From: a virus
Direction: 5' to 3' (one strand)
Virus record (IMG/VR): IMGVR_UViG_3300035182_000466
Location: 106,062 to 170,061 of that record
DNA: 64,000 nt
Shown here piece after piece: positions 49,642 to 56,950 of the stretch. The position numbers were made by a program, and so were the translations under genes. Numbering within the stretch: position 1 is the first letter of the stretch; each line of letters starts with the position of its first letter. Under the pieces are notes generated by a model. That model was not told where the DNA came from and made no database searches. It saw only the letters and a list, made by a program, of their open reading frames with translations.

Positions 49642-49772
49642 TTAAGTAATATAAAGAGTATCTACTGCTTTAGCTTCTTCAGGATGCTCAGAAATAATGT
49701 TAGATGTTTAACCATTACATAGATATGCCTATCTATTTTTGATCTAAATGAAATAAATTCAAATATATCTAT
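49642..49772 (-). pseudogene. Broken small gene
   Basis: No in-frame ATG at the 5' end (an ATA lies where it would be, overlapping the upstream stop). DIFEFISFRSKIDRHIYVMV is followed by a frame change in an A-run and NIISEHPEEAKAVDTLYIT. The joined protein would be about 44 residues. Confidence 0.45.
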
Positions 49773-50416
49773 GCATCCAGTAGCTTAACTTCATCAGTAT
49801 TCTCAGAAATTAAATAAAATGGTCTACGTGTTCCTGTAGTTAAGTATTCCGCAGCTTTAAGAGCCATCAGTATCTTGTCTTCTGCATAAAGCTTTACTCT
49901 TCTAGGTTTCTCATCAAATTCGTAAGAGTATAAAACTCCTCTTGCTACGTCATCACCAGATCCAATAGCATGACCCCAATTTTCACAGTCAATAACAGAA
50001 AGATTACAGCATATCTCGTAAATCTGTCCATTATAGCCTATGATAATATCTGCATCCATTTCAGGTTCTTCATTCTCATGTTTTAATAAGTTATATCGAG
50101 ATAAAGTCTTTTGTAGGAAAGGAACGAAGGTACAACGGAGATAACTAGAAAATTGTGTATTAATATCTAAAGCAACTGTAGCAGTAGTAGGCTTAAATGA
50201 TAAGAAATTAGGTAAAGTATTCTCAATCTCCTGTGCATAAGATTCATAAAAAAGTGTATCAGCTACTCGTCCTGAACCTGTTACTCCAATTACCATTTGG
50301 CTAAGTTTAGCAATCTTTGCGTTGTTTCCGGTAATTCGTGTACTTCTATTTTGATATAATGAATCTGCACCCATTGATACTATTTCATTTTCTACAACAG
50401 CTACAATTGTTGACAT
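49769..50416 (-). CDS. Proteasome/HslV-like Ntn-hydrolase
   Basis: 215 residues. The N-terminus MSTIVAVVENEIVSMGADS matches the start of proteasome beta/HslV subunits, where removal of Met exposes a Ser or Thr nucleophile. IGVTGSGRVADTL and ADIIIGYNGQIY follow as in the fold. No unfoldase partner (HslU-like) is in the window. It may be a phage peptidase acting on its own or with a host ATPase. Confidence 0.75.
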   Translation of the reverse strand: MSTIVAVVENEIVSMGADSLYQNRSTRITGNNAKIAKLSQMVIGVTGSGRVADTLFYESYAQEIENTLPNFLSFKPTTATVALDINTQFSSYLRCTFVPFLQKTLSRYNLLKHENEEPEMDADIIIGYNGQIYEICCNLSVIDCENWGHAIGSGDDVARGVLYSYEFDEKPRRVKLYAEDKILMALKAAEYLTTGTRRPFYLISENTDEVKLLDA

Positions 50417-55668: not shown

Positions 55669-55744
55669 TGGAGTTGGCGATAGGACTCGAATCTGCAGTC
55701 TACTGATTACAAGTCAACTGCTCTACTAATTAAGCTATACTAGC
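55669..55744 (-). tRNA. tRNA-Thr(UGU), degenerate
   Basis: Read on the - strand: anticodon loop CUUGUAA gives UGU (Thr). The D-stem, anticodon stem, T-loop (TTCGAGT) and encoded CCA end are intact. However, the acceptor stem (GCTAGTA with CGCCAAC) has three A-C mismatches and the T-stem (GCAGA with CCTAT) has two, including the normally invariant G53-C61 pair. It is either a decayed gene or one that needs RNA editing. Confidence 0.7.
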
Positions 55745-56138: not shown

Positions 56139-56492
56139 TTATGAAAGTTCTTTTTCTATATCACAAAAATGTAAAGGTTTCTTATAACAAACGATATTCC
56201 GTTCTTTAGAACCTTTTAGTATCTCTGGACTGGCAGACATAAATATAATCTTAGTGTCTGGTGCATAATCTTGTACATAAAGTGCAAGTTGAGCTCCTGT
56301 AATACCAGGCATCATAATATCTGTCAAAAGTAAGGCTATGTTCATAGCCTTTAGAATATGCATCGCTGAAGCATAAGAATCAGCTAAGTAAATATTTTTA
56401 TAACCGTTTGACTCAAATAATGTCTTACACAATTCAAGACTAAAATAATCATCATCAACTATCAATATATTACTTGACTTATCTATAGCCAT
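56139..56492 (-). CDS. Stand-alone response-regulator receiver domain
   Basis: 117 residues from the ATG at 56492, which has AGGAGG upstream; an in-frame ATG at 56597 would run through the tmRNA 3' end. The receiver signature is D13/D14, phosphoacceptor D58 (LLTDIMMP), S86 and K105. There is no output domain. It may compete for a host histidine kinase or sequester phosphate. It starts 19 nt after the tmRNA CCA. Confidence 0.8.
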   Translation of the reverse strand: MAIDKSSNILIVDDDYFSLELCKTLFESNGYKNIYLADSYASAMHILKAMNIALLLTDIMMPGITGAQLALYVQDYAPDTKIIFMSASPEILKGSKERNIVCYKKPLHFCDIEKELS

Positions 56493-56510: not shown

Positions 56511-56950
56511 TGGTGGAGGTGGAGGGCTCCGACTCCCTCGTCTTGCATATGCATCCATAATCACATCTACGCTAATAGCTTCATTTAATTTAAACACTGG
56601 AGTAATAGAAGCCTAAACTATCCAGAGTCGATTAAGTTTTATGCTGAAAACTTACAAACAGGTTCCTCTTGTTAGCTACACATAACTTACCGAAATGTGA
56701 TCTTCTGTTACTCAGCGAAGGTTTACTAAGAGTATCTTCCTTTACTGTACCTACGATTCTACTGTAGGAATTTGTTACTTCTAAGCTGCTGCCAATTGGT
56801 CGAAACCATAGTTGTCAGCAGTGAAGAAGCCTTTTACTTTTTCAATTACAGTGTTTGCATTTATTGTTTAGTGGATTATTAATGAGGCCAACCACAATCC
56901 TCATAGCGCAGTAATTACTTTACATACACAATCGAATCCAATTCACCCCC
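56511..56950 (-). ncRNA. ssrA: tmRNA (trans-translation RNA) with 25-codon tag
   Basis: Read on the - strand. The 5' end GGGGGTGAATTGGATTCGA matches tmRNA starts. Its first seven bases pair with CACCTCC, followed by A and encoded CCA (56511-56513), giving the G3-U70 pair that alanyl-tRNA synthetase needs. TTGTGTATG near the 5' end pairs with CATATGCAA near the 3' end (helix P2). The tag runs from the GCA codon at 56856-56858 to TAG at 56781-56783. It is 25 residues, beginning ANTVIEKVKG and ending NYGFDQLAAA. The T-loop (AGTCGGAG between GAGGG and CCCTC) is unusual. The 192 nt upstream (56951-57142) hold nothing recognisable. Confidence 0.9.

Follow-up and report, generated by a model that had tools for sequence, protein, structure and literature searches.

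A complete one-piece tmRNA with a variant 8-nt T-loop from a large tailed phage

The 64,000-nt stretch of virus DNA analyzed here (the window) contains a locus for which an earlier note had claimed a complete tmRNA of about 440 nt; the question is whether this gene is real and, if so, in what it differs from known tmRNAs. An Rfam covariance search (cmscan) yielded a match to RF00023 at positions 56511-56950 of the minus strand (the earlier note named none), with 97.6 bits against a cut-off of 47 bits and an E-value of 7.3e-37. The alignment spans model positions 1-374 of 374, i.e., the gene is complete and has the standard order, with the 5’ acceptor strand first. It is the single tmRNA match in the entire 170,061-bp virus record, and an identical copy of this 440-nt one-piece gene is present in a second contig. 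The permuted order of halves of two-piece tmRNAs (RF04321, RF01849, RF01850) was not observed, and an mRNA-like domain is present, in contrast to the domain-only RNA of DS6A. The window tmRNA is thus a real gene; it is absent from the output of ARAGORN.

All the elements described below are on the minus strand, and nucleotide n of the tmRNA corresponds to window position 56951-n. The acceptor stem consists of 7 bp: GGGGGUG (56944-56950) pairs with CACCUCC (56515-56521), where U70 faces G3, and together with the encoded ACCA the 3’ strand covers 56511-56521; the G3-U70 pair and the encoded CCA claimed earlier are therefore visible in the sequence. The D-loop analogue AAUUGGAUUCGA (56932-56943), reading UUGGAUUCGA in the window tmRNA, fits the RF00023 consensus. 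Pseudoknot PK1 (56871-56904), formed by AUGAGG/CCUCAU and GUGG/CCAC, can be recognized in the sequence and is aligned by RF00023, and the T-arm (56522-56539) comprises a 5-bp stem, GAGGG/CCCUC, and an 8-nt loop, AGUCGGAG (56527-56534). The predicted fold, which is stabler than those of shuffled sequences (z = -2.87), contains the acceptor, a long P2 helix, a P5 hairpin and the T-stem. The centroid fold places the P2 strands approximately at 56904-56930 (5’) and 56544-56574 (3’), and the P5-type hairpin (56777-56830, local fold of -21.3 kcal/mol) includes the second half of the tag and the stop codon. The check proposed in the earlier note was, hence, borne out for the full-length covariance match and PK1, and in the predicted fold for P2, while for PK2-PK4 there are candidate pairings only, that stretch being poorly aligned by RF00023. 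The acceptor with G3-U70 and CCA, the D-loop analogue, P2 and PK1 are shared with the E. coli ssrA-type one-piece tmRNA (RF00023), as are the resume codon past an A-rich stretch and a tag ending in alanines, whereas the 8-nt loop, the 25-residue tag, the 440-nt length and the lack of an SmpB gene found in the phage distinguish the window tmRNA.

The tag reading frame of 25 codons, ANTVIEKVKGFFTADNYGFDQLAAA (56784-56858), starts with GCA AAC ACU at nt 93, after AACAAUAAAU, and ends in DQL-AAA followed by the stop codon TAG (56781-56783), exactly as had been read before. The tmRNA of a 294,944-bp relative (L185, 121 bits with RF00023) has a tag of 19 residues, ANFANAVADNYGFEARLAA, when read from the homologous resume codon. 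The motif ADNYGF-x3-LAA is common to both tags, the C-terminal half being kept in L185, which demonstrates conservation of the tag end; the two RNAs also share an unchanged 14-nt block, GACAACTATGGTTT, while much of the remaining RNA has diverged. This comparison with one relative is the best evidence that the tag is real and retained, and it supports a functional tag. An 18-nt stretch of the window tmRNA, missing from L185, corresponds to six residues and the base of P5, so that the approximately six extra codons of the tag sit next to this hairpin; the stretch accounts for part of the unusual tag length. Cold-shock, DHH and further homologs of the window genes are located within about 10 kb of the L185 tmRNA. 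The two loci thus agree in the homologous gene, the tag end and the neighboring genes, and differ in that L185 has a canonical T-loop (UUCAACU), a 19-residue tag, and is reported by ARAGORN. The latter program assigns 12 residues to the L185 tag; however, a shorter true tag is not favored, because the RF00023 alignment places the resume region at GCA in the window and GCC in L185, about 12 nt past PK1. Searches by tblastn with the 25-residue tag and with a Bxz1 tag sequence gave no match; both queries are short, and these negative results are hence weak.

The length of the tag, taken for a special feature in the earlier note, was rejected as a novelty, since other viral tmRNAs have tags of 21-30 residues as well. 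Among the matches listed from a pattern-based sample of at least 120 viral contigs, ARAGORN tags of 22, 23, and 28 residues were found among many of about 10, and tags of 21 and 30 residues were read in viral tmRNA genes that ARAGORN misses. In phages with the same T-loop as in the window, tag frames stay open and are alike between relatives. The commonest tag length in a database of 97,179 tmRNAs is 10 (PMC11915505).

The T-loop, whose oddity went unremarked in the earlier note, has 8 nt instead of the usual 7-nt UUCRANU, and the whole molecule passes RF00023 despite it. Exact scans with the T-arm pattern AGUCGNNG plus acceptor, bound to one acceptor-end form and to a genome collection of contigs of at least 3 kb, matched 16 viral contigs (the same 16 when one inner stem pair was relaxed) and, among 84,980 prokaryote species, only two Streptomyces stretches, both without a tmRNA. 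A bacterial source of the loop was rejected, as the exact pattern gave no tmRNA in these species. All 16 viral matches are tmRNA genes, 14 of them recognized by Rfam and two (L132 and L136) by reading, and in none of the 16 contigs did ARAGORN report a tmRNA. We grouped them into seven backbones, represented by L141, which is the twin of the window; L031 (302 kb); L131 (152 kb); L133, L134, L137, L138, L139, L142, and L144; L135 (190 kb); L045, L132, and L140; and L136 and L143 (44 and 464 kb). Outside the T-arm the backbone representatives are about 59-68% identical, shuffled sequence giving a mean of 0.60 and a maximum of 0.64. The tmRNAs other than the twin (L031, L045, L131-L140, and L142-L144) share with the window the loop pattern and the GGG/CCC inner T-stem, but the remainder is about 61-65% identical to it, i.e., near the shuffled level, and their tags have 9-30 residues.

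The outer pairs of the T-stem covary (GA..UC, CC..GG, CG..CG, GC..GC) and the enclosed loop is constant; as these pairs compensate around it, the loop is the part being preserved. L107 and L140 have the same T-stem and share 95% identity in the remaining RNA, their loops being UUCGAUU and AGUCGGUG, respectively, and the window and L185 likewise combine an 8-nt and a canonical loop. Since each of these two related pairs has one canonical member, the two loop forms have been switched at least twice. The 8-nt loop has no T54 and A58 positions, and the U-C-G of AGUCGNNG is expected to keep the bases that, judging from general tRNA structure, contact the D-loop. In isolate phages, the window tmRNA had no match at E 1e-5 and only chance-level ones at E 10, four other variant-loop tmRNAs had no match, and the T-arm alone gave no convincing one. 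As far as these scans reach, the 8-nt form was found only in tmRNAs of uncultivated phages, and no report of it was found in the literature searched, which took in little subscription literature. The T-loop variant is what is new, phage tmRNAs and long tags being already known.

Several further features were noted in the viral contigs. Other non-canonical 8-nt T-loops, AGGCAGAG, NUGCRAUN, and UUUCAAUG, occur in tmRNAs of contigs L147-L162, so relaxed T-loops are a wider trend in viral tmRNAs. Three of these contigs, which also carry many tRNAs, contain bacterial class A RNase P RNA (L149:5410-5721, L150:12987-13316, L159:9809-10122). GOLLD RNA is located about 150-900 nt from the variant-loop tmRNA, on the opposite strand, in L133, L134, L137, L138, L139, L142, and L144, and two tRNAs of L131 have G instead of U55. 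An open frame of approximately 60-70 codons lies between the tag and the 3’ tRNA-like half in L045:2322-2797, L107:495-965, L140:4002-4476, L132, and L135:2808-3261, with a stretch resembling a ribosome-binding site, e.g., MSENNNTSGYEIRQGLLQQAQ; these are candidate protein genes nested in tmRNA genes. Matches confined to the tRNA-like domain, 73 and 88 nt long and DS6A-like, were found at L021:4193-4265, L040:10069-10156, and L156:4831-4918.

Three tRNA genes, a YqeY-like gene and a CorA-like gene lie near the window tmRNA, in agreement with the tRNA and YqeY-like neighbors mentioned in the earlier note. A degenerate tRNA, apparently tRNA-Thr(UGU) (55672-55744, minus strand), scores 36.9 bits in Rfam, is not reported by ARAGORN and has a poorly paired acceptor stem. 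Just 3’ of the tmRNA, and not part of the RNA, there is a gene encoding a single response-regulator receiver domain (56139-56492, minus strand; PF00072, E 2.9e-17); it has a good ribosome-binding site and begins about 20 nt past the CCA. The HslV/proteasome-like protein encoded at 49769-50416 (minus strand; PF00227, phrog_1040) has Ser right after Met; in HslV, the first residue after Met is Thr. No GOLLD or other Rfam RNA adjoins the window tmRNA, no defense-system families were found in ten window proteins, and promoter and terminator scans gave no more than expected by chance.

The second IMG/VR contig with the identical tmRNA (146,793 bp) matches the window at 99.8% identity along about 19 kb. 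A tail sheath and a head protein are recognizable in the phage. The major head protein is 88% identical in the 294,944-bp contig and about 46% identical in contigs of 261-268 kb, and among isolates it is matched best by Erwinia jumbo phages (about 265 kb). Accordingly, the 170-kb record probably represents a portion of the genome of a jumbo phage. Known phage tmRNAs (Bacillus phage G, the mycobacteriophage Bxz1 group, marine and huge phages; PMC4131195, PMC9004378, PMC7162821) are, like that of the window, tRNA-adjacent genes of large tailed phages. Ten phages with tmRNAs were listed in 2014 (PMC4131195), tmRNA was found in 402 of 18,146 phage genomes (PMC9004378), and huge phages with both tmRNA and SmpB have been described (PMC7162821). 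The published censuses relied on ARAGORN or similar programs, and the window gene is not reported by ARAGORN.

We regard the window tmRNA as ordinary for a phage in function, with a variant T-loop: quite probably, it functions as a one-piece tmRNA in a large tailed phage, supplementing host ribosome rescue with a degron tag. What the sequences show is its anatomy, the conservation of the tag in one relative, and the T-loop class with its distribution. Alanylation, delivery by SmpB, resumption, release, and degradation constitute established tmRNA biology, and it is by this route that we infer how the window tmRNA is charged, that it partners with SmpB, that it tags proteins for degradation, and when in infection it acts. 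Host AlaRS would charge the phage tmRNA via G3-U70, and host EF-Tu and SmpB would bring it to ribosomes that have stalled on mRNAs that are broken or lack a stop codon. Translation would restart at GCA, append the 25-residue tag ending in LAAA, and be followed by release at TAG. The tag would consist of the conserved degron-like end ADNYGF-x3-LAA, extended by about six codons beside the P5 hairpin, and the 8-nt loop would still present U-C-G to the D-loop, a tRNA-like elbow being expected. The ribosome would be freed, and the product left with alanines at its C-terminus as a degron, probably recognized by ClpXP of the host; a di-alanine end is the first determinant for ClpX (PMC9601184). The phage would thereby add to the ribosome rescue of the host in infection; rescue on nuclease-cut mRNA and tagging of host proteins, as suggested in the earlier note, may be part of this role.

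The SmpB gene that the earlier note proposed to look for was not found in the record, which is probably incomplete, nor in its twin or the 295-kb relative; therefore, the phage tmRNA probably uses host SmpB. In the 464-kb phage contig L143, SmpB (G009:C1:7336-7758, a frame of 155 codons, 176.8 bits) is encoded together with a variant-loop tmRNA whose tag has 30 residues, suggesting that trans-translation can proceed with the variant loop. A non-canonical T-loop could, at the same time, weaken the function.

A different role would follow if the altered loop bound SmpB, AlaRS, or EF-Tu while trans-translation remained incomplete, so that host rescue was blocked. The DS6A-type RNA, which has the tRNA-like domain only, strongly inhibits tmRNA (PMC4131195, PMC11915505), domain-only forms exist in viral contigs, and the window T-loop is abnormal; however, a tag would be superfluous in a decoy, whereas here both the complete mRNA-like domain and the end of the tag have been conserved, and a phage with the same loop encodes SmpB. 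Leaving the conserved tag unexplained, this role is less apt, and we consider it improbable. That the gene stems from faulty assembly, a piece of a host ssrA, or the end of a prophage is extremely improbable, and this reading was rejected: many ssrA matches among those listed from viral contigs do resemble prophage ends, with the enterobacterial tag ANDENYALAA, but the window gene is complete, lies inside a phage record among neighbors homologous to those of the L185 tmRNA, and has an identical copy in a second contig, the same loop being present in 16 viral contigs.

A working tmRNA being preferred, the cause of the loop change has to be considered. Tentatively, large uncultivated phages may have repeatedly given their tmRNAs one 8-nt loop, AGUCGRWG, as a phage-specific functional adaptation, which could be an escape from a host enzyme, intron, or integrase, or an advantage in dealing with SmpB, EF-Tu, or the ribosome. 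Escape proper, by which the loop removes a DNA site of an intron or integrating element or the U54/A58 features recognized by a host T-loop enzyme and the function is kept, competes only over this cause and is compatible with a working tmRNA. Such escape from mobile DNA is conceivable because introns are located in the T-loop of tmRNAs and genomic islands frequently make use of this gene (PMC11915505), and it agrees with the same loop on seven dissimilar backbones, the switch in two related pairs, and the T-stem covarying around a constant loop. However, no target enzyme or element was found, many phage tmRNAs keep UUCRANU, and simple escape might predict many loops; several do occur, yet one form recurs. 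We rate this cause as rather unlikely; besides mobile DNA, enzymes that modify or cut the T-loop may be what is evaded, or the change may affect how strongly the RNA binds SmpB, EF-Tu, or RNase P. Equally doubtful is drift, i.e., tolerance of phage tmRNAs to T-loop change with this loop spread by inter-phage recombination: further odd T-loops in viral tmRNAs and the different loops inside the identical T-stem of L107 and L140 speak for it, but drift would not keep AGUCGNNG unchanged while outer T-stem pairs vary.

T-loops belong to the most conserved elements of tRNA-like RNAs and are normally near-invariant. The AGUCGRWG class has gone unnoticed because genes of this kind are not reported by the standard finder, and censuses of phage tmRNAs that depend on ARAGORN, those of huge phages among them, overlook it. 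The recurrent loop and its canonical sisters (L185 and L107) form ready pairs for testing the role of the T-loop in trans-translation, and the same pairs could show what phages gain by changing it.
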